DNA of 64,000 bases, taken from the NCBI GenBank assembly GCA_002319075.1, contig NVQB01000001.1, positions 744,001 to 808,000 on the forward strand, read 5' to 3'. The translations under genes were made by a program, and so were the position numbers. The DNA comes from Sphingobacteriaceae bacterium (GTDB lineage: Bacteria; Bacteroidota; Bacteroidia; B-17B0; Aurantibacillaceae). Below, piece by piece: positions 13,628 through 23,631 of the stretch. Each line of letters opens with the position of its first letter. The stretch's first letter is position 1. A model generated the notes under the pieces. That model ran no database searches. It saw only the letters and a list, made by a program, of their open reading frames with translations, and was not told where the DNA came from.

Positions 13628-14455
13628 ATGAGCGCAAAAATTAAAGAAAAAATAGATGCTTCGATCGAAGGAAAATTAAAAAACCTTTATCAATTACAAT
13701 TAATCGACAGCAAGATCGATAAATTACGCACTATTCGTGGAGAATTACCTTTAGAGGTGAGTGATCTGGAAGATACAGTAGCTGGTCTTGAAACAAGACT
13801 TACTAATGTAACGGAAGAAGTTGCAGAGTTAGAAAATCAATTGAACGAGAAAAAACAAAACATCAAGGATTTTCAGGCTAATATTAAAAAATACGAAGCG
13901 CAACAAAACAAAGTGCGTAATAACCGTGAATACGATGCTATTACTAAAGAAATTGAATTTCAAAATTTAGAAATTCAATTGGCTGAAAAACGTACTAAAG
14001 AAGCAAAAGCGAGCGTTATCATTAAAAGCGAATTACTTGAGAAAAGTAAAATCGAATTTGAAGAACGCAGCAAAGATTTGAAAGCTAAAAAAAGTGAGCT
14101 TGAAGAAATTATTGCTGAAACTGAAAAAGACGAAAAAGAATTAATTGTAGAAAGCGAAAAAGCGGCGTCAACCATTGAAGACCGTTTATTGAATGCTTAC
14201 AAACGTATTCGTGCTAATTCTCGTAACGGCCTTGCGGTTGTTGCTGTAGAACGTGATGCTTGTGGCGGTTGTTACAATAAAATTCCACCACAACGTCAAT
14301 TAGACATCCGTTTAAATAAAAAAATTATTGTTTGCGAACATTGCGGGCGTGTATTGGTTGATGGTATGTTGATACCGGATTCTGGTTTAGAAGACGTTCA
14401 AAAAGAAGCGCAAAAAGCTGCTGACAAAGCTGCTGCAGATAAAGCAGAAAAATAA
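13628..14455 (+). CDS. Coiled-coil C4-type zinc-ribbon protein
   Basis: 275 residues. About residues 10-180 are a long Lys/Glu-rich helical coiled coil (heptad-like, few prolines). Then comes a C4 zinc ribbon with CGGC near 211 and CEHCGR near 236, and a short charged tail (KAADKAAADKAEK). This matches the DUF164/zf-RING_7 family, which has a conserved association with nif3 genes; a role in RNA or DNA transactions is suspected, but no biochemical function is assigned with certainty. It starts 4 bp after the Nif3-like gene, so the two form an operon. The tRNA-Val promoter begins just past the stop. Confidence 0.88.
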   Translation: MSAKIKEKIDASIEGKLKNLYQLQLIDSKIDKLRTIRGELPLEVSDLEDTVAGLETRLTNVTEEVAELENQLNEKKQNIKDFQANIKKYEAQQNKVRNNREYDAITKEIEFQNLEIQLAEKRTKEAKASVIIKSELLEKSKIEFEERSKDLKAKKSELEEIIAETEKDEKELIVESEKAASTIEDRLLNAYKRIRANSRNGLAVVAVERDACGGCYNKIPPQRQLDIRLNKKIIVCEHCGRVLVDGMLIPDSGLEDVQKEAQKAADKAAADKAEK

Positions 14456-14570: not shown

Positions 14571-14645
14571 GGGAGCTTAGCTCAGCTGGTTCAGAGCACC
14601 TGCCTTACAAGCAGGGGGTCACTGGTTCGAACCCAGTAGTTCCCA
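14571..14645 (+). tRNA. tRNA-Val (anticodon UAC)
   Basis: 75 nt without encoded CCA. The acceptor stem GGGAGCT pairs with AGTTCCC (one G-T), followed by discriminator A. The D-arm is AGCTCAGCTGGTTCAGAGC. The anticodon stem CCTGC/GCAGG encloses the loop CTTACAA with anticodon TAC (reads GTA/GTN). The T-arm CTGG-TTCGAAC-CCAG is intact. It has its own promoter and terminator. Decayed copies of its 3' half follow it downstream. Confidence 0.96.
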
Positions 14646-14647
14646 CG

Positions 14648-14682
14648 AAAAAAGCCTTACAGAAATGTAAGGCTTTTTTTTT
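14648..14682 (+). terminator. Terminator of tRNA-Val
   Basis: GCCTTACA (14654-14661), loop GAAA, TGTAAGGC (14666-14673), flanked by an A-run and a run of nine T, so it would work in both directions. The same hairpin recurs twice downstream as part of the tRNA-like repeat. Confidence 0.9.
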
Positions 14683-14742
14683 GTAAACTTTTTGCCTTCA
14701 TCAGATCATTACTAAAATTAAATGGATCAGGCGCAAAAGTTG

Positions 14743-14994
14743 GGATCAGGCGCAAAAGTTGTGGGGAAGAAAAAATAATCTGAATTTTACGGGGACTAAA
14801 ACTAACTATGGACCCATCCTACAATGACTTTTTAAAAATAGTATTACCTAAGGGGATTCGGAAAGCTTGGATCAGGCGCAAAAGTTGTGGGGTAGAAAAA
14901 ATAATCTGAATTTTACGGGGACTAAAACTAACTATGGACCCATCCTACAATGACTTTTTAAAAATAGTATTACCTAAGGGGATTCGGAAAGCTT
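14743..14994. repeat. Two direct 126-bp repeats, possible IS-end relic
   Basis: Copy 1 is 14743-14868 and copy 2 is 14869-14994; by eye they differ at one base (GGGGAAGA versus GGGGTAGA). The first 19 bases of the unit also occur once more at 14724-14742, directly before copy 1. Each unit contains an ATG (14808 and 14934) opening a short frame MDPSYNDFLKIVLPKGIRKA that soon stops (33 and 30 residues). That looks like the first codons of a transposase with the rest missing. The unit's end (GGAAAGCT-TGGAG) resembles a motif in the flanking tRNA-associated repeat. The IS origin is inference only; no transposase body or matching right end is seen. Confidence 0.7.
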
Positions 14995-15036
14995 TGGAGA
15001 GGCTGTTTTATTTTACAAAGGTCTAACCTTTATTAT

Positions 15037-15379
15037 ATCAATCCGGAAAGCTGTGGAGAAACTCTTTACTAAAATTAAGTTCAGCTGCTTTAGAGCACCT
15101 GCCATAAACACAGGGGGCATTGGTTCGTCCCGATAGCTATCGGGACAGTAGTTCCCACGAAAAAAGCCTTACAGAAATGTAAGGCTTTTTTTTTGTAAAC
15201 TTTTTGCCTTCATCAGATCACCAGATCAATCCGGAAAGCTGTGGAGAGACTCACTACTAAAATTAAATTTAGCTGCTTTAGAGCAGCTGCCATAAACACA
15301 GGGGGCATTGGTTCGTCCCGATAGCTATCGGGACAGTAGTTCCCACGAAAAAAGCCTTACAGAAATGTAAGGCTTTTTT
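15037..15379 (+). repeat. Two tandem decayed copies of tRNA-Val 3' part plus terminator (period 188 bp)
   Basis: Units begin ATCAATCCGGAAAGCT at 15037 and 15225. Each contains a degraded tRNA-Val (about 15081-15157 and 15271-15345). It keeps GCTTTAGAGCA, CAGGGGGCATTGGTTCG and AGTAGTTCCCACG, but the anticodon arm is broken (CCATAAACA in place of a seven-base loop). In the T-arm the base pairs are replaced by the palindrome GTCCCGATAGCTATCGGGAC (15127-15146 and 15315-15334). Each then repeats the GCCTTACA-GAAA-TGTAAGGC terminator (15160-15194 and 15348-15377). The tRNA copies cannot be functional. The second terminator also faces the end of the large minus-strand gene starting at 20454. Confidence 0.85.
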
Positions 15380-15429
15380 ATTTTGTTTAGTGCATGATGT
15401 TTTGTCTTATCGATGTATGCGTTCAAAAT

Positions 15430-18400
15430 CTATTTCGCCAAGACTATTTTCTTTATTATTTTTTTGTCTGAATTTTCGAACGCCATAAAATAGATTCCAT
15501 TTGCTAGCATAGAGAGATCTATTGTTTCTGAACCAATCCTTAATTTATTTTGAACGTAAACGGCTTTCCCTGCGACGTCTATCACCTTCAGAGTCATGTT
15601 TTCGTTCAACCCACTAATGGAGATAACTCCTGAAGTTGGGTTTGGAAAGATTTCAATACTTGATTGCACCAGGGCTTGGTCTGTAATATCCAACAAGAAA
15701 TTTTTCTGGGTCGGAATAGCCGGAGAGTTAAAGTTCTTGCAGAGAGGTGGCGCCCCACCAGCAATATTAATCGCACCTGCAACACTGTATGGAGTTCCTC
15801 CGCCGGAGCCATTGCTGGTGGGATTAAAACCGGGGCCCGGTTGAACGAACAGAGGAGATGACAAGGCATTGCTCCCGCCCATCACATACGTTTCGTAAGA
15901 GGTTGGCACTGTCCAAATACCGTTCCATTGATTGTTGCTTGGTAAGTTTGAATTGCCCTGAGGACTTATAACAGCATTATTAAGTACCAGTCCTCTTGCA
16001 TGATTTTGCATGCGGTTGCCTGACCAGGTTGTAAGAAGATTCTGGCCTTCAAATTCGAACGCATGGAAGCTATTACTTAGATCGTTGCATTGGATAAAGG
16101 AACGGTAATTATTTTTACTGTGAACGAGAGTAATGAACTGATTATTCACTCCTGTGGCTGCGAGTGTGTTACTGTAAACTCCAAGATTACCCAAACTCGA
16201 AACTGCCTGAATACCCCATTGGCGCGACGGAGCAAAAATATTGTCATTTTCAACTAGAATAAGATTTGAGATAATATTGACAGGATAGGCGTTTAATCCG
16301 TTTACCGAAATGCCGCGATAAATCCGGTTTAATTTATTACTCTGTATCATGGCAGAGCCCGTTACCTGCCAAGCTGTTGTATTGCTGTTATCGTTGATGT
16401 GAATGGCCTCATTCAAAAACTCATTCGCTATGGGAGTGAGGCTGTTGATCTCGGGTCCAAAATAATTCTGTAAGACACTGATATTGGAAGCATATACACC
16501 AGTTCCGGAAGATCCGTTTACGTTGTATGATCCGCTGAGTACATTTGTCCAAAGGGCGTATGTAACGTTATTGAATTCATTCAAATTCACGTTGAAATTG
16601 AAGCGATTGGATTGAAGGTAAATGCCCATACTTCCTGGTCCATAGGGTGGATTGAGAAGGGCCTGGTGGGAACTTCTGAATATCGCGTATTGAATAGTGA
16701 TATCGAAAACATTCCTTGTGCTAATAGCATTCCAGCAATCCCAGAAACGATTACCAATGCTGGTATTCGGTAAAATCGCGGGCGGACTAAGATACAGACG
16801 AGCATTCATCAGCGACGTAATGTTGTGACGTATCCCTAGTCCGCCGAACATTCCGCTAGACGTGGAGAAGTATTTTGCATTTTGGAAAACATTGTTAATA
16901 GTAATTAAACTGGCATTTGTTACATCTATTCCTATTCCCAAACCATCAAATAAATTAAATGTATTCCAACTGGATATGTTGTTGGCTCCGAAATCTATCC
17001 CGTTGGACACAACTGGAGACGATATGTTCCCAATGTTGTTTATTTCCACACCAATATTTCCCGGCTGAGAATTGTATGGAGATTTAAGATTGCTGAAGGG
17101 ATAATTTTGCATAGTGTAGGGTGCGGCAAGTCCTGTTGTCGAATTAATAGCAGCTCTCAGGCCCGGTGCTGTTGTTGAAGAACTCGGCCATGAAGAAGAA
17201 GTAAATGGAAGACTCCGGCTTGTGAAAATGCATGACCTTACCAATAGACTTAAATTCGTGAGACTTCCATTCCGAACTCTGATCCCTGTATAGTTTTTAT
17301 TAAAGATGGTGCCATTGAGTTCAAGAACCGGATTTGCTATCTGCGCTGTGATGTTATCAATATCCACAGCAGCGATCGCATCTTCAATAAGTGTTGAGTT
17401 GCCTCCGCCCGATCCTGATTGCAGGAAAGCTCCGTTTTGAATAACGATACCTTGCCACATTGCAGTGCTGCAGCCATACAGGTGAGAACCGAAAATCTGA
17501 AATTGCGTTCCGGGAACGGCAGTTAAAATAACGCCCGGCGCTATTACAAATTCACCGTTTGTTAATGAGATAATTCCAGGGCCCAAGGTGGTATTTTGAT
17601 TGATAACAATTTGTCCGCTCAGATTTGTTCCCCCGGGAATTGCATTGGAAGTTAAGGCAACATAAGGTGATACTGTTGTTTGGGTGCAGCAGTTGTTACT
17701 AACGTTAAGACTTAATGTTTGGGACACAATGCATCCAGTATTTGGATCAGGAGCGCTGACTGTATAAACTGTAGTAGCAATAGGATTGACAGAAATGTTT
17801 TGCCCGTTTAAGTTACCTGGTTGCCAGTTGTAAGTAACATTGTATCCCAAAGTATTGCTTGCAGATAATTGTACAGATGGGAAAATATTATTGCAGAAGA
17901 TGGAAGGCCCAGTGGTTGTAATTCCAAAGCTGTTTAAGATCGTAATTTGTGATATCATCGACTTTACACAGCCGGCGGAGGTTGTATAGTTGAATGTTAT
18001 GGGGTAGTTTCCCGGTGCCAGCGGAGGGGACAATGTGTTAAAGTTGTAAATACCACCACTGTTAACCACACCTGGGCCATTGAATACAACCCCTGGCGCA
18101 TTTACATATTGCGCCAGGTTAGTGAGCGAACTTCCATAGCACAGTGTCGCCGGAATAGTTATCACAGGGACCTGGCCTGAAGGAACGAGAGAAATATCGT
18201 CCACGTAAAAGTAGAATGGATCATTCGACCCATTTGGATTGGCACTTATGGTTAACGGCACATCGTTACCAATAATCAGACAGTTATGATTGGATGATCC
18301 GGTAAAGGTTACGGTTGCTGTAAGATGTTTCCATACCGCGTTGTCCGCAGGTGTTAATGTAAAACTGACGAGCGTTGTCAAACCGGCCGGAAATCCGGCC

Positions 18401-20454
18401 GGGCCGCCGAATGCGGCAATGTTAGGCGCACTCGCTAAACTTATGACAAGGTTATCGGTAGAAGCGCTAGGTCCCAAAGTCCCGTTAAATAAGCCCTTAT
18501 AAGCCCAGAGGCTTACAACATAAGAACTGTTAGGCATTAACGGTGCCCCCAGAGCAGTTTTCATGCACTCACCAGTAGTGTTATTTGGGTTAATAGCTGG
18601 CCCGCCAACACCAATCATGCCCATTGTTCTATTGTTAGGGATGCCGTTCCATGAATCAGGTAAAGGACTTATTCCGGAAGGCGGAAAATCATTAATACTC
18701 CCTGCGCCTAAGCCCTGGCAATTTCTACTTTGAAGATCCGGCGACGCAATATATATTTCCCAACAATTTATGGCATTGTTAAGGATTGGACCACACACAT
18801 TTGTTGAACCGCTGAGATTTTCAAAACCTCCGTTCTGCACCATATCGCAGAGGTCGGGAGGATTGCAAAAACCTATACAAGGAAAAAATGCCCAGATGTA
18901 AGTGGGGTTGCCCGTTTGACCCGCGGCGTTAATCGGTAAGTACTGCAACAGCATTGGGCCACAAGTGGTCTGCGGTCCGGCAGGCAACTGCAGAATAACA
19001 CTGCCGGAAGCTACTGTAAGCCCAATGTTACCTAGCGAATAAACAGAACTAACGCAAGTGATGCCAACAGTTCCGGGAGCGTCATTATTAATAATGGTGG
19101 AAATTGGAATCGCTATTCCTGTACCGTTACTAATGTTAGGAAGAAAAGAGTAATTGGCGCCATTCAGGCCGTCGTTCACTCCCCATATTCCCGGGCCATT
19201 ACAGACGCCGCCGTAGCTGGCGTTGGCGCCAGCTACCGGGCTGCTGTAATTGGCTTGTACGGTATAACCCAGATCGCACAATACAGTTCTCTCTTGCGGT
19301 TTCGGAAAACGTTTCACAGACCCGTAAGCATTAGCCATAGCAAAATACTGATTGTTATTAGCAGGATTTACAGTTGGTGAACACATGTCTTCAAAATGGC
19401 TGAGACTGGAACCAGGTTCATAACAATTGGGATGATAAAGTTTTACGTCGACAGTTGAAAAGTATCGAGGTGCCGTGGCACAATTGTTTGTGAGGTCGGT
19501 AGGAGGACAAGTATTGCCATTAATAGAGGAAACTGAGGCGTTAAAGTTATAGCTTAAGTTAAAAGTTGGACAACTGCTGTTGCTTGAAGAAAGCAGGTCT
19601 GTACCCAAATAATCTTTGAGGTGTGTGTCAAATTTGGAATAATAATTATTAGCCTGTCCGATATTGGATGAGCCGTTCGGACCAATAAGGCTGACAAAAC
19701 CAAGTCCATGCATGGATTCGTGCAGCATAACAGTATAAAAATCTCTTTGAGCGCTTGGAACGATTGAAGTGCTAGTATTAAAATTCCAATTCGCATTCGG
19801 ATCAATTGCAATGATTCCATGGTAAAAATTGTTAGCGCCGGTATAATTTACGATTGGAGTCGCTACGTTCAAATAACCATCGACGCCGCTGATAATTGTT
19901 TTTTCCATGAAAGTCCACGCTATCCCGGGGTTTGGACTTAACGGATTGGTTGGAAAGCAATATAACGATCCGAACGAAGCAAGTGCTGGTGAAGCTGCGT
20001 TGTCCTCAATATATAGATTAACAAAAGTAGTATTGTTGGATGTTACGTTACAAGGTGACGAAAGCGGGGAACGGATAAAACAGGATAGATCCGTGTACAA
20101 CTGGCAGAGGATATTGCGCATGCTGGTGGGAGCTGGATTTGTGGAAGTTAAACCTCCTCCGAAAAAGAGTCTGAAATAACCTGCCTGACAACTCGTGGTA
20201 GGTCCGGCATTGATAGTGTTGCCTTGGGAGACGGGTTTACCCGGTTGACTGGTAGACGAAGGATTCCCCGAGAAAGGGATTTGCAGATCTTTCAACAGAT
20301 ACTTTTTTCCATATTGGTCATAGATGGTGTCAAAATAGCCGTTAGGTGAGTAATGTGCTCCTGGTGTTTCTTTACTTTGAGAAAATAGTTTTGCCGATAA
20401 AGTGAGAAATAGGAAGAACATGACGTAGACTTTTTTTTGATTTGAATTTTTCAT
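15430..20454 (-). CDS. Giant T9SS-exported surface protein with metalloprotease-like domain
   Basis: 1674 residues from MKNSNQKKVYVMFF, a clear Sec signal peptide ending near LFSQS. The open frame continues upstream but that part is not signal-like, so the ATG at 20454 is used. Near residues 245-249 is HESMHGLGF, a zinc-protease-type HExxH with the following GLGF. No third His within the metzincin spacing is visible, so the ligand set is incomplete or different. A carbohydrate-binding-like segment (DNLVISLASAPN region), one Ig-like repeat (STVYTVSAPDPNTGC) and a long Asn/Ile-rich section resembling a right-handed beta-helix (IYRGISVNGLN, HARGLVLNNA) follow. The C-terminus is a type-A sorting domain (IFPNPTSGVISISGL...NGIYFMAF...KKIVLAK). 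It lies downstream of a LytTR two-component pair on the same strand. Substrate unknown. Confidence 0.85.
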   Translation of the reverse strand: MKNSNQKKVYVMFFLFLTLSAKLFSQSKETPGAHYSPNGYFDTIYDQYGKKYLLKDLQIPFSGNPSSTSQPGKPVSQGNTINAGPTTSCQAGYFRLFFGGGLTSTNPAPTSMRNILCQLYTDLSCFIRSPLSSPCNVTSNNTTFVNLYIEDNAASPALASFGSLYCFPTNPLSPNPGIAWTFMEKTIISGVDGYLNVATPIVNYTGANNFYHGIIAIDPNANWNFNTSTSIVPSAQRDFYTVMLHESMHGLGFVSLIGPNGSSNIGQANNYYSKFDTHLKDYLGTDLLSSSNSSCPTFNLSYNFNASVSSINGNTCPPTDLTNNCATAPRYFSTVDVKLYHPNCYEPGSSLSHFEDMCSPTVNPANNNQYFAMANAYGSVKRFPKPQERTVLCDLGYTVQANYSSPVAGANASYGGVCNGPGIWGVNDGLNGANYSFLPNISNGTGIAIPISTIINNDAPGTVGITCVSSVYSLGNIGLTVASGSVILQLPAGPQTTCGPMLLQYLPINAAGQTGNPTYIWAFFPCIGFCNPPDLCDMVQNGGFENLSGSTNVCGPILNNAINCWEIYIASPDLQSRNCQGLGAGSINDFPPSGISPLPDSWNGIPNNRTMGMIGVGGPAINPNNTTGECMKTALGAPLMPNSSYVVSLWAYKGLFNGTLGPSASTDNLVISLASAPNIAAFGGPAGFPAGLTTLVSFTLTPADNAVWKHLTATVTFTGSSNHNCLIIGNDVPLTISANPNGSNDPFYFYVDDISLVPSGQVPVITIPATLCYGSSLTNLAQYVNAPGVVFNGPGVVNSGGIYNFNTLSPPLAPGNYPITFNYTTSAGCVKSMISQITILNSFGITTTGPSIFCNNIFPSVQLSASNTLGYNVTYNWQPGNLNGQNISVNPIATTVYTVSAPDPNTGCIVSQTLSLNVSNNCCTQTTVSPYVALTSNAIPGGTNLSGQIVINQNTTLGPGIISLTNGEFVIAPGVILTAVPGTQFQIFGSHLYGCSTAMWQGIVIQNGAFLQSGSGGGNSTLIEDAIAAVDIDNITAQIANPVLELNGTIFNKNYTGIRVRNGSLTNLSLLVRSCIFTSRSLPFTSSSWPSSSTTAPGLRAAINSTTGLAAPYTMQNYPFSNLKSPYNSQPGNIGVEINNIGNISSPVVSNGIDFGANNISSWNTFNLFDGLGIGIDVTNASLITINNVFQNAKYFSTSSGMFGGLGIRHNITSLMNARLYLSPPAILPNTSIGNRFWDCWNAISTRNVFDITIQYAIFRSSHQALLNPPYGPGSMGIYLQSNRFNFNVNLNEFNNVTYALWTNVLSGSYNVNGSSGTGVYASNISVLQNYFGPEINSLTPIANEFLNEAIHINDNSNTTAWQVTGSAMIQSNKLNRIYRGISVNGLNAYPVNIISNLILVENDNIFAPSRQWGIQAVSSLGNLGVYSNTLAATGVNNQFITLVHSKNNYRSFIQCNDLSNSFHAFEFEGQNLLTTWSGNRMQNHARGLVLNNAVISPQGNSNLPSNNQWNGIWTVPTSYETYVMGGSNALSSPLFVQPGPGFNPTSNGSGGGTPYSVAGAINIAGGAPPLCKNFNSPAIPTQKNFLLDITDQALVQSSIEIFPNPTSGVISISGLNENMTLKVIDVAGKAVYVQNKLRIGSETIDLSMLANGIYFMAFENSDKKIIKKIVLAK

Positions 20455-20631
20455 TGGCGAGGGATTAATGATCAAGTTTATATTTATGAAAAAGGATAGC
20501 AATTTTTTCAAAAGTACAAGATCAAATTCCTGGAATGGGCCGTTCAAACAGTTTTCAAACCAGTGTAAAAAAAACAAGACATCACAGAACAAGGCACCCA
20601 ACAAAGTGATGGGATGCTTGATAACATTAAC

Positions 20632-21384
20632 TTAAAGGTGTTTCAGGTTTTTCAGAATGTCGGTTTTCTTACGCCGTGAAACCTCGAAGCTTTGTCGACC
20701 TATCATATGCAGAATGCAAATAGCATCTTTCGTGTAGCTTTTGATGAAATGTGTGTTGACGATCACATTTTTATTGATGCGTACAAAATTAGGACTCGTC
20801 TCCAGCGCTTTTTCAAATTTAACCAGGTCTTTGCTTGAGAAATAGTGACTGTTGTCTTTTAGAAAAAGAGTTGTAATATCGTTTTTGGTTTCAATGATTG
20901 AAATATCAGCGATGGAGATAAAAATAACATGGCCGTTATGATGCACGGAAAATTTATTTACAAGATCCTCCTGGTCGGAAAGTGTTTTCACAAAATGAAG
21001 CACGACATCATTCTGCGTATTGAGCTTAATTTTTTCAGTTGCTTTCTTTACCGCCAGGATCAGCTTATCCGAGTCAACAGGTTTCAGCATATATCCCAAA
21101 GCGTTAAATTCGAAAGCCTGCACTGCATATCTATTATAGGCCGTTACAAAGATGACCTCAAAATTAATGACAGTAAACATTTTTAAAAGATCTAACCCAC
21201 TCTTTTTTGGCATTTTAATATCCAAAAAAATAAGACGTGGTTTAAAATGTAATATTTTTTCGTACGCCTCCGCTGCGCTATTGGCTTCTGACACGATCTT
21301 TACTGTATCACAATGCTTTTCCAGCAGGGTTCTTAAACTTATTCTGTTATGTTCTTCGTCGTCGACCAGAAGCGCGGAAATCAT
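20632..21384 (-). CDS. LytTR family response regulator
   Basis: 250 residues. The receiver domain (1-120) has the acidic pair D8/D9, phospho-acceptor D55 in LIFLDIKMPK, T81 and K101 in MLKPVD. A LytTR DNA-binding domain follows (about 145-248; HNGHVIFISIADI, VRINKNVIVNTHFI, SFEVSRRKK). Such regulators bind direct repeats upstream of targets. The gene starts one base after the stop of the upstream sensor kinase, so they form a two-component pair. The adjacent T9SS protein is a plausible but unproven target. Confidence 0.95.
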   Translation of the reverse strand: MISALLVDDEEHNRISLRTLLEKHCDTVKIVSEANSAAEAYEKILHFKPRLIFLDIKMPKKSGLDLLKMFTVINFEVIFVTAYNRYAVQAFEFNALGYMLKPVDSDKLILAVKKATEKIKLNTQNDVVLHFVKTLSDQEDLVNKFSVHHNGHVIFISIADISIIETKNDITTLFLKDNSHYFSSKDLVKFEKALETSPNFVRINKNVIVNTHFIKSYTKDAICILHMIGRQSFEVSRRKKTDILKNLKHL

Positions 21385-21385
21385 A

Positions 21386-22885
21386 TTAATAGGTATTATG
21401 GGTTAAACGAATGAGGACTTTTGTTCCGCAAGGAGTGTTGTCAGCATTAAACAAGTCAACAATTTCCAGTTTAAAATCACCACTATTTCTAAGCAGGTTA
21501 ATACTCTCAATTTTGTCAAGCGCTAATTTAGAACCCATGGATTTCCTTAAGTTAGTTATACCAGAAAGGCTTCGGCCGATACCATTATCTTCTATTACCA
21601 CATAACCGAACCCCCCTTCCAAATATATACTTACGGTAAGCCGTGCAGGTTTTCCTTCAAGAGGAAGCAGGCCATGCCAGATAGCATTTTCTATAAACGG
21701 ATGGGTGATCAGGGAGGGAATTAGAAAATCTTCGGGATTTATATTCTCACCAATCGAAATAGTGAATGAAAAATCATTTTTAAAACGCAACTGTTCAAGT
21801 TCAACGTTCATTTTAATGATAGACAATTCTTCATCCAGTGTGACATAATTTTTTTCAGAATATTCGAGAATTTGTCTCAGGAAATGACTGAATTTTGCTA
21901 AATATTGACTTGCTTTATCCACTTCATTTTGTAACATTAAATTCTGGATGGCTGCCAAACTATTAGAAAGAAAATGTGGATTCATTTGAGTTTTGATCAC
22001 TTTTATTTCCAGTTGAGAAATACGGTTACGTAATTCAAGTTGCTCTTTTTGCTTTCGAAGTGCGCGCTTATTGCGAAAAAGTAAAAGAAGAATGATACTG
22101 GCCAATCCGATAAGTATTGCACCTATCTTTAAAACTTTATAAAGTGTATTCTTAAATGCGTTAGGATTCGGAGCTTCGTATAATGCTTTGATCTCCTGAT
22201 CCGAAAGACTTCGGTGAAAGATCTGGATGTCGTCAAATGTTCCAATGGACATGCGTTCATTTTTTTTGCTGGCGCTATGTCCTATAACCAATGAATCGCT
22301 TGCCAGGAATTTTGTTTCGAAATTTTTTTCCGTTTTTTGTCTTAGTGTACCATTGGTATACAAGGCCAGATAATCAGTGTTGCAAATGATCACATAATGA
22401 TACCACTTATTAAATTGAAAAGGCTCTTCGTCTACAACAGCAACTTCATCTGTAGAATCCTTAGTTGATACAGCTCCTACATGATCCATATCGGGTATAT
22501 AAAAAAACGTTATGGCATTTATGAAGTCCTCTCCGGGACCATTTTTTATGGTGATCATTGGATTGTGAGTATTTCCACGGCCCAAATAATTTCTGCGATA
22601 TAAATTTACCCAGAATGAAATAGTGATATTAGGTGATTTAAGAAGTGAAGATGTGCCAAGACTTAAGTAACAAGCCGGGTCTCCACGGAGGAATACGGCA
22701 GATTTTTCATTGCCAAAACGGTCAGCAATTAAGGTGGCTCCCGAATAAGTTGGATGGACCTTATTATTTTTTTCTTTTATTTGATGCTCGTTAAAATCAA
22801 AAGTCAATGCGATACTGCTGTCATGTTGAGAAAAGGCCTGTAGGAAAAAAAAACTAAATAGAATTGAATAGAATAGTGTTTTCAC
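21386..22885 (-). CDS. LytS-type sensor histidine kinase with extracellular LamG domain
   Basis: 499 residues, starting with GTG. Signal peptide at 1-19 (LFSFFFLQAFSQ), then a concanavalin/LamG-type domain at about 25-235 (SIALTFDFNE, ITISFWVNLYRR, KWYHYVIICN, ALYTNGTLRQ, GTFDDIQIFHRSLSDQEIKALYE). A membrane helix lies at about 253-273 (IGAILIGLASIILLLLF). The cytoplasmic part is a His_kinase/LytS domain with H304 in QMNPHFLSNS and a HATPase with HPFIENAIWHGL (N box) and VVIEDNGIGR (G box). The Leu-Ser at NPHFLSN in place of the usual NPHFLFN is a minor variant. LamG domains bind glycans or proteins, so the kinase probably senses a surface ligand. It pairs with the LytTR regulator downstream. 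Confidence 0.93.
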   Translation of the reverse strand: MKTLFYSILFSFFFLQAFSQHDSSIALTFDFNEHQIKEKNNKVHPTYSGATLIADRFGNEKSAVFLRGDPACYLSLGTSSLLKSPNITISFWVNLYRRNYLGRGNTHNPMITIKNGPGEDFINAITFFYIPDMDHVGAVSTKDSTDEVAVVDEEPFQFNKWYHYVIICNTDYLALYTNGTLRQKTEKNFETKFLASDSLVIGHSASKKNERMSIGTFDDIQIFHRSLSDQEIKALYEAPNPNAFKNTLYKVLKIGAILIGLASIILLLLFRNKRALRKQKEQLELRNRISQLEIKVIKTQMNPHFLSNSLAAIQNLMLQNEVDKASQYLAKFSHFLRQILEYSEKNYVTLDEELSIIKMNVELEQLRFKNDFSFTISIGENINPEDFLIPSLITHPFIENAIWHGLLPLEGKPARLTVSIYLEGGFGYVVIEDNGIGRSLSGITNLRKSMGSKLALDKIESINLLRNSGDFKLEIVDLFNADNTPCGTKVLIRLTHNTY

Positions 22886-23265: not shown

Positions 23266-23367
23266 AGTAAAAAACACAAGAACTGCCATGGGGAAGGGAT
23301 TGCTTAATTTGAATTTAGTTTCGTTTATGAAATAAAAAGGCCCGGAAAAAATTCCGGGCCTTTTTTT
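23266..23367 (+). ncRNA. Candidate small RNA or 15-codon peptide gene
   Basis: A consensus promoter box at 23254-23261 and a strong terminator ending at 23367 bracket about 100 bases with no ordinary gene. The transcript would contain one tiny frame, ATG at 23288 to TAA at 23335 (MGKGLLNLNLVSFMK), ending at the first base of the terminator region. No Rfam family is recognised. It could be a regulatory RNA, a micro-peptide, or a relic of a lost gene whose promoter and terminator remain. The exact 5' end is a guess of about 5 bases after the -7 box. Confidence 0.4.
23334..23367 (+). terminator. Strong bidirectional terminator
   Basis: The stem AAAAAGGCCCGGAA (23334-23347) pairs with TTCCGGGCCTTTTT (23352-23365) around an AAAA loop, followed by further T. 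No real gene lies immediately upstream on the plus strand. Confidence 0.9.
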
Positions 23368-23370
23368 ACA

Positions 23371-23460
23371 AAACTTTTTGCCTTCATCAGATCACCAGAT
23401 CAATCCGGAAAGCTGTGGAGAGACTCACTACTAAAATTAAATTTAGCTGCTTTAAAGCAC
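23371..23460 (+). repeat. Dispersed 90-bp copy of the tRNA-Val-associated repeat
   Basis: Matches 15197-15286 at 88 of 90 positions in a hand alignment (AAACTTTTTGCC...GGAAAGCTGTGGAGAGAC...TTTAGCTGCTTTAAAGCAC). Like the copies at 15 kb it begins directly after a terminator T-run. It stops about 20 bases into the tRNA-like part, so no tRNA body is present. Confidence 0.85.
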
Positions 23461-23631
23461 CCTGACCTTCATTTGAAGAGATAGCTTCCTGACCAGACAC
23501 AAAGTGCCTACAATTAGAATAATTCATGCAACGCTGGCACATATTGAATAACACCCCACTTGCCCTAATGAACCAACTCCCACGATCTCTGGCATCCATA
23601 TTGCAGCATTGAGTTAACTAATATACTCACT

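Follow-up and report, generated by a model that had tools for sequence, protein, structure and literature searches.

Downstream of an intact tRNA-Val gene in the stretch of DNA analyzed here lie two tandem partial copies of that gene, and we consider it very probable that they are the ORF-less relics of a cassette carrying a tRNA-targeting GIY-YIG nuclease. The stretch, called the window below, comprises 64,000 nucleotides, i.e., bases 744001–808000 of a 5.65-Mb genome in two contigs. In relatives of this genome, the complete cassette consists of an intact tRNA, a terminator, a same-strand GIY-YIG ORF of roughly 80–105 codons, a partial tRNA copy, and a terminator. In most cases, a short GC-rich palindrome replaces or interrupts a loop (D, anticodon, or T) of the partial copy. 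Some cassettes have the mirror arrangement, in which a disrupted 5′ copy is followed by the ORF and then by the intact tRNA. The GIY-YIG ORF is absent from the window units.

An earlier note, made from the sequence alone, had placed an intact tRNA-Val(UAC) at 14571–14646. This gene was confirmed by ARAGORN, which called it (as tRNA-Val(tac)) as the sole tRNA of the whole window, and by Rfam, in which it scored 69.5 bits against the tRNA model and was the one match above the gathering score. A further 17 sub-gathering Rfam matches (STnc230 at 30.4 bits, SpF41, and similar) were set aside as terminator look-alikes. The gene directly upstream of the tRNA (13628–14455) encodes a protein of 275 aa that has two CxxC motifs close to the C-terminus. 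By eye, the terminator of the tRNA is similar to the terminators of two cassette loci, L113 and L144, but also to the one at L101, a locus at which the GIY-YIG ORF was not detected. The features of the locus are summarized in the table.

Table. Features of the tRNA-Val locus in the window
Feature	Position	Strand	Basis or remark
Intact tRNA-Val(UAC), host tRNA	14571–14646	+	ARAGORN; Rfam; 76 nt identical to the tRNA-Val of 13 of the 29 orthologous loci
tRNA-Val terminator (GCCTTACAGAAATGTAAGGC and T run)	14648–14682	+	Inverted repeat
IS left-end remnants, including a 126-bp tandem duplication (14736–14861 and 14862–14987, 98%)	14723–14987	+	
Unit 1: linker, partial tRNA-Val copy (about 15078–15158), terminator; flank retained to 15220	15037–15194	+	
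Palindrome GTCCCGATAGCTATCGGGAC in the T-loop of copy 1	15127–15146	.	Same palindrome and position in congener locus L103
Unit 2: linker, partial tRNA-Val copy (about 15266–15346), terminator	15225–15382	+	
Palindrome GTCCCGATAGCTATCGGGAC in the T-loop of copy 2	15315–15334	.	
Third, partial unit, preceded by another terminator-like hairpin and consisting of flank, linker, and the beginning of the tRNA copy	23357–23461	+	

The two units are as alike as they had been said to be, with 96% identity and a start-to-start distance of 188 bp. Both were thought to keep the tRNA 3′ end, the terminator, and the downstream flank; the first two are kept in both, whereas the flank survives in unit 1 and not in unit 2. 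The 75-nt stretch containing the tRNA 3′ end, the terminator, and the flank (14634–14708) is 100% identical to 15146–15220 in unit 1, whereas unit 2 matches it at only 71% because its post-terminator flank differs. The anticodon arm is, by eye, broken in both copies, and the 20-bp palindrome reported from the T-arm lies in the T-loop, between tRNA positions 58 and 65. Both observations agree with the initial description. The 16-base core of the palindrome has three matches in the window at ≤ 1 mismatch, compared with 0.00 in 100 shuffles. Neither a profile search of the window units for remains of the ORF nor the scoring of their stretches against ORF profiles (C-terminal profile, p 0.24–0.97; N-terminal profile, p 0.10–0.51) gave a significant result, so the cassette claim for the window rests on the congener locus L103, the position, the palindrome, and the sister loci. 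A genome search with the 188-bp unit, which had been proposed as a check, showed the unit to be confined to this locus apart from one partial copy 8 kb away; the kind of arrangement is not local, as described below.

Two elements of the locus had gone unmentioned in the earlier note, namely two 126-bp copies of an IS left end, which separate the tRNA-Val from unit 1 (14736–14987), and the third, partial unit. A longer copy of the same left end elsewhere in the genome (L004) has an ISL3-type transposase (PF01610) downstream. Left ends of this IS (GGATCAGGCGCAAAAG) lie within or beside tRNA-copy arrays both in the window (14723–14987) and at another locus (L228, about position 1966), and this may reflect a target preference. 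Three long genes are located between unit 2 and the third unit. One is a 1724-aa ORF with the secretion tail PF18962, read as a secreted protein; another encodes a response regulator with LytTR, and the remaining one encodes a histidine kinase that carries a Laminin_G_3 domain. This gene block (15430–22885) looks as if it was inserted at the T-run of a terminator.

The cassette itself is found with its ORF at other loci of the window's genome and in relatives. The GIY-YIG domain (PF01541) scored 53–68 bits in 4/4 proteins from these sources, and none of the four ORFs matched an NCBIfam family; the residues Y, S, Y, G, R, H, E, and K are invariant in 11 aligned ORF rows. In the window's genome, the order tRNA, ORF, copy occurs at tRNA-Ser(GCU) and in a tRNA-Leu(CAA) array, and the mirror order occurs at Leu(GAG). 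The element that follows Met(CAU) is nearly the same as the one at Arg(ACG) (alignments over 685 bp at 93% and over 98 bp at 97%), and the ORF rows of the two are identical in the tree described below. The distal copy of both is only a 9-nt tRNA end, and these 9-mers are tRNA-specific, indicating that the element moved between tRNAs. An array at tRNA-Ala contains three tandem palindrome-bearing copies with a 258-bp period. It is ORF-less, with a relic of the ORF start (VYILYS; p 0.0005, 0.03, and 0.01 in units 1–3) and a C-terminal relic (p 0.02–0.03); the start relic supports the loss of the ORF by deletion within arrays. In six genomes of the genus, 20 of 35 small GIY-YIG matches had a same-strand tRNA within 500 bp, in a count that covered same-strand tRNAs only and 35 of the 37 matches with an open frame < 150 aa, two sub-threshold fragments and 13 longer proteins being left out. 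The 15 matches with no such tRNA within this distance include a YILKCSD-like subgroup and some remnants or contig ends.

We then compared the tRNA-Val locus among relatives. Of 296 loci encoding a relative, 80 were kept, nearly all from metagenome-assembled genomes (Bacteroidetes, Bacteroidia, or Sphingobacteriaceae), and the 29 with a forward tRNA-Val (ARAGORN) behind the same upstream gene were taken as the orthologous set. At eight of these 29 loci, a same-strand GIY-YIG ORF lay no more than 1.5 kb downstream; three of the other 21 hold < 450 bp of downstream sequence. In the sister genomes, a free-standing GIY-YIG ORF of about 82 aa lies between the tRNA-Val and a downstream partial copy, and partial tRNA-Val copies occur upstream and/or downstream in which a TCCCGA...TCGGGA hairpin stands in place of the entire anticodon arm (28|46). 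At 23 of the 29 orthologous loci, no palindrome-bearing tRNA copy was detected. The intact tRNA-Val is identical in four cassette loci and nine loci without a detected cassette, which means that the tRNA body alone cannot separate self from target. Thus, if the nuclease spares its own locus, the flank must be read or some other limit must exist. One genome (G001; L017 and L247) has, directly upstream of the intact tRNA-Val, a tandem of ten near-identical copies, 89 bp apart, that contain upstream sequence and the tRNA-Val 5′ half with a hairpin. These ten copies are possibly all included in one precursor leader.

The key congener locus for the reading of the window units is L103, a 3,651-bp contig (JANYBY010000117.1) that is equal over the compared stretch to a congeneric genome (G029). 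Its order is tRNA-Val, terminator, open GIY-YIG ORF, and tRNA-Val copy, and the ORF ends at the TAG of the D-arm of the copy. The copy carries palindromes in the D-loop, the anticodon arm, and the T-loop. The T-loop palindrome (TCCCGATAGCTATCGGGA after CACTGGTTCG) and the one in the window units are the same 18-mer at the same position. Judged by eye, about five residues are missing from the ORF behind the first tyrosine, and it may therefore be inactive.

The relationship between the window units and a nuclease gene can be questioned, because a local tandem duplication beside the tRNA, by slippage or unequal crossing-over, could have been hit by a neutral, REP-like palindrome dispersed through the genome, in which case the locus would never have been a nuclease cassette. 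The 188-bp unit is indeed local and holds no significant ORF relic, and the palindrome occurs at 43 sites in the genome, where its flanks tend to be complementary (40 sites, z −5.4), so that it lies in other hairpins too. However, L103 has the same palindrome at the same T-loop position and a nuclease gene between the tRNA-Val and its copy. Furthermore, the same architecture with the ORF is present at other tRNAs, and the tRNA-Ala array of the window's own genome retains the relic of the ORF start. We therefore regard a simple local duplication as improbable. The copies are read as traces of a mobile element rather than of slippage alone because the arrangement recurs at other tRNAs, both in this genome and in its relatives.

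We also analyzed the distribution of the palindrome in the window's genome, in which CCCGATAGCTATCGGG or close forms account for the 43 sites. Thirteen of them are within 1 kb of a tRNA, compared with 0.53 expected (8 of 29 clusters), and 30 are > 1 kb from any tRNA, as measured with 47 tRNA matches above a cut-off of 52. Besides Val, the palindrome is found in partial copies of tRNA-Ala, Phe, His, Leu(UAA), Asn, Cys, and Leu(GAG). It mostly replaces or interrupts a loop of the copy, either the T-loop (Val 58|65, Ala 57|63, Phe 56|61) or the D-loop region (Asn 12|19, Leu(GAG) 13|17). The exceptions are Cys (8|13), in which it takes bases of the D-stem, and the Leu(CAA) copies, in which another palindrome lies between two stems. 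These positions were obtained with a hairpin-first script, which missed inserts visible by eye (Ser, Leu-taa, His, and Arg-cct in G026). Many of the tRNA-distant copies sit in terminators or other hairpins. The flanks of 40 sites had a mean duplex energy of −7.65, compared with −5.28 when re-paired at random, and this complementarity was reached in none of 20,000 permutations; three tandem duplicates of the 43 sites were dropped for this test, and related integron-like sites were kept uncollapsed. Palindromes were also seen at two other loci of this genome. At the first (L182; G000:C1:2055000-2062500), hairpin sites resembling integron attC sites by eye are repeated between small ORFs, and several contain the same palindrome. 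At the second (L177; G000:C1:4576000-4580600), a second tRNA cluster, compared with L179, looks like a decaying partial copy of the Gln-Leu-Ile-Pro-His-Phe-Tyr cluster, and the T-arms of its His and Phe copies contain palindromes.

Short palindromes repeated through a genome are known as REP sequences and as Rickettsia palindromic elements, and the 43 sites found here are similar in this respect. In contrast to those elements, the palindromes described here lie in the loops of tRNA copies within nuclease cassettes, and their sequences differ by genome. We considered the idea that one palindrome family is inserted into any hairpin loop by a single-strand transposase. This idea was rejected, since the Y1 (IS200-like) transposase family PF01797, which is associated with REP/RAYT systems, had zero matches in the window's genome (the control search was positive in 5 of 14 genomes), and the cassettes of other genomes carry other palindromes. 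For these reasons, the palindrome was not taken to be the mobile entity itself. A RAYT route as the source of the palindrome in the window's genome is unlikely because of the absent PF01797 match.

To estimate the breadth of the cassette, 148 genomes of the class were searched with the alignment of 11 ORFs, and matches at E ≤ 1e-8 were obtained in 103 of them; this alignment consists mostly of tRNA-linked ORFs and favours the tRNA-linked subgroup, so the class-wide share is not a census. The search returned 30 loci, one of which was from the window's own genome, and two class stretches (L285 and L286) were left out of the examination. A tRNA was located within 520 bp of the ORF at 24 of the 30 loci (within 200 bp at 23), and the nearest tRNA was on the same strand as the ORF in all 24. 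On the other side of the ORF, a partial tRNA copy was present at 20 of these 24 loci, and none was found at four. Under strict rules, a palindrome flanked on both sides by tRNA sequence was detected at 10 of the 24 loci and at none of the other 14; one of the ten (L254) may be the T-arm itself, and L265 has a further palindrome-bearing tRNA copy beyond these ten. The host tRNAs across the class were Val, Ala, Met, Arg, Leu, Ser, His, and Asn.

Several genomes of the class contain tandem arrays in which the ORF is repeated. In G156, ten ORFs follow tRNA-Met with a spacing of exactly 457 bp, and four follow tRNA-Asn with a spacing of 379 bp. G201 has eight ORFs at 359–368 bp with Met-type copies, in a stretch where no intact tRNA was called, and G146 has three ORFs behind Leu(UAA). 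The tRNA copies displayed in these arrays again carry palindromes, not all of them perfect, and the palindrome sequences differ between genomes. The phylogeny of the ORF tracks tRNA identity: the tRNA labels need 18 changes on the tree, compared with a mean of 25.5 and a minimum of 21 in 500 shuffles of 35 rows. The tree is based on only 81 columns, and many of its forks are open. Of its 47 rows, 43 were labelled, and 35 remained after one row was kept per label in the genus; 18 of the 20 tRNA-linked ORFs of the genus were used, L250 (the same gene as G000:4269419) was left out, and the label of L277 was set by hand from L279.

We propose a homing mechanism for the cassette and give it about an even chance of being correct. 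In an allele without the cassette, the nuclease would cut the tRNA gene, and recombinational repair would then copy the whole cassette in, with the two tRNA copies acting as homology arms. The intact tRNA copy of the cassette would restore the essential gene, and the palindrome would disable the second copy as a tRNA and probably also as a cutting target. Unequal recombination between copies would then produce tandem arrays and delete the ORF, as proposed for the window. Repeated stretches invite unequal exchange, and this would explain both the amplification and the ORF-less 188-bp and 258-bp arrays of the window's genome. A broader proposal, to which we give slightly less than an even chance, is that the cassette is a widespread, minimal selfish chromosomal element of Bacteroidia. 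It would comprise one nuclease gene of ~80 codons that targets one tRNA type and two tRNA copies that serve as homology arms, one intact copy keeping the host alive and the other marked as immune by the loop palindrome. Such an element could home across species, since tRNA genes are so conserved, and would move occasionally between tRNAs.

The closest known system is SegB of phages T4 and T6. According to a segB survey that covers phage and archaeal-virus genomes, SegB is a free-standing GIY-YIG homing endonuclease encoded beside tRNA genes; it is reported to cut tRNA-containing DNA and to drive tandem repeats of the tRNA-segB unit, microhomology is shared by the 5′ end of the tRNA and the 3′ end of segB, and no tRNA isotype is favoured near segB (PMC13096335). 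The cassettes are similar in their free-standing GIY-YIG gene, their place beside tRNAs, and their tandem habit. The free-standing ORF is present in relatives and at other loci of the window's genome and missing from the window units, and the location beside tRNAs holds for the 24 of 30 class loci and the 20 of 35 genus matches given above. Unlike SegB as described there, the cassettes reside in Bacteroidia genomes, most have a partial tRNA copy, often broken by a palindrome, and their ORF clades track tRNA identity. In the best reading, the cassettes would be a bacterial counterpart of phage SegB.

The earlier note had interpreted the copies either as scars of serial integration and excision or as a SINE-like, tRNA-derived repeat family. 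Its general notion of a mobile, tRNA-associated element stood in our analysis, and neither of the two specific forms did. Integrative elements at tRNA attachment sites leave partial 3′ tRNA copies, and the att sites of many of them keep the tRNA 3′ end. The window copies keep this end too, and unit 2 is separated from the third unit by a gene block of 8 kb. However, Pfam searches of the three long genes in this block (15.4–23.4 kb) revealed no integrase, and thus no integrase gene sharing the att-like core, which had been suggested as a check, was found among them. Moreover, the recurrent neighbour at such loci is the GIY-YIG nuclease. Elsewhere, 5′ copies occur in which the D-loop or the anticodon arm is replaced; 3′-end att scars would not give these. 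The cassettes also differ from integrative elements in their loop palindromes and in consisting essentially of one small nuclease gene. Serial integrase scars are therefore very improbable. The SINE-like family was not upheld, because unit 1 carries post-terminator sequence and the copies stay beside their own tRNA.

Also very improbable is a role of the palindrome-bearing copies as functional RNAs (decoys or regulators) with the nuclease as a domesticated partner, which would suit the ten-copy tandem upstream of tRNA-Val in G001 and the folding of window copy 2 (z −3.9, better than each of 200 shuffles; copy 1, z −2.3) but not the position of the window copies behind a terminator, the change of the disrupted loop from locus to locus, the 23 orthologous loci without detected copies, or the erosion of several copies.

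If the reading of the window units as relics of a nuclease cassette and its extension to the class are true, SegB-like, tRNA-targeting homing endonucleases exist in bacterial chromosomes on a class-wide scale. Among the open-licence papers listed in literature searches, none was seen to describe GIY-YIG cassettes linked to tRNAs in bacterial chromosomes, which is weak evidence of novelty. The cassettes would provide a natural model of a nuclease that lives on an essential and very conserved gene, and they raise a testable question, namely, how short palindromes enter hairpin loops. They would also account for many "pseudo-tRNAs" in Bacteroidia as well as some false tRNA calls there, and annotation pipelines will report false tRNAs at loci with palindrome-broken copies. 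Such false ARAGORN calls were seen at L011:1856-1935, L017:781-857 (minus strand), L265:1724-1799, and L254:1155-1235. The genes called, tRNA-Glu(ttc), tRNA-Cys(aca), tRNA-Phe(gaa), and tRNA-Lys(ttt), are copies of tRNA-Val or tRNA-Ala with a palindrome in the anticodon arm; the "tRNA-Phe" of L265, for example, is a palindrome-bearing tRNA-Ala copy.
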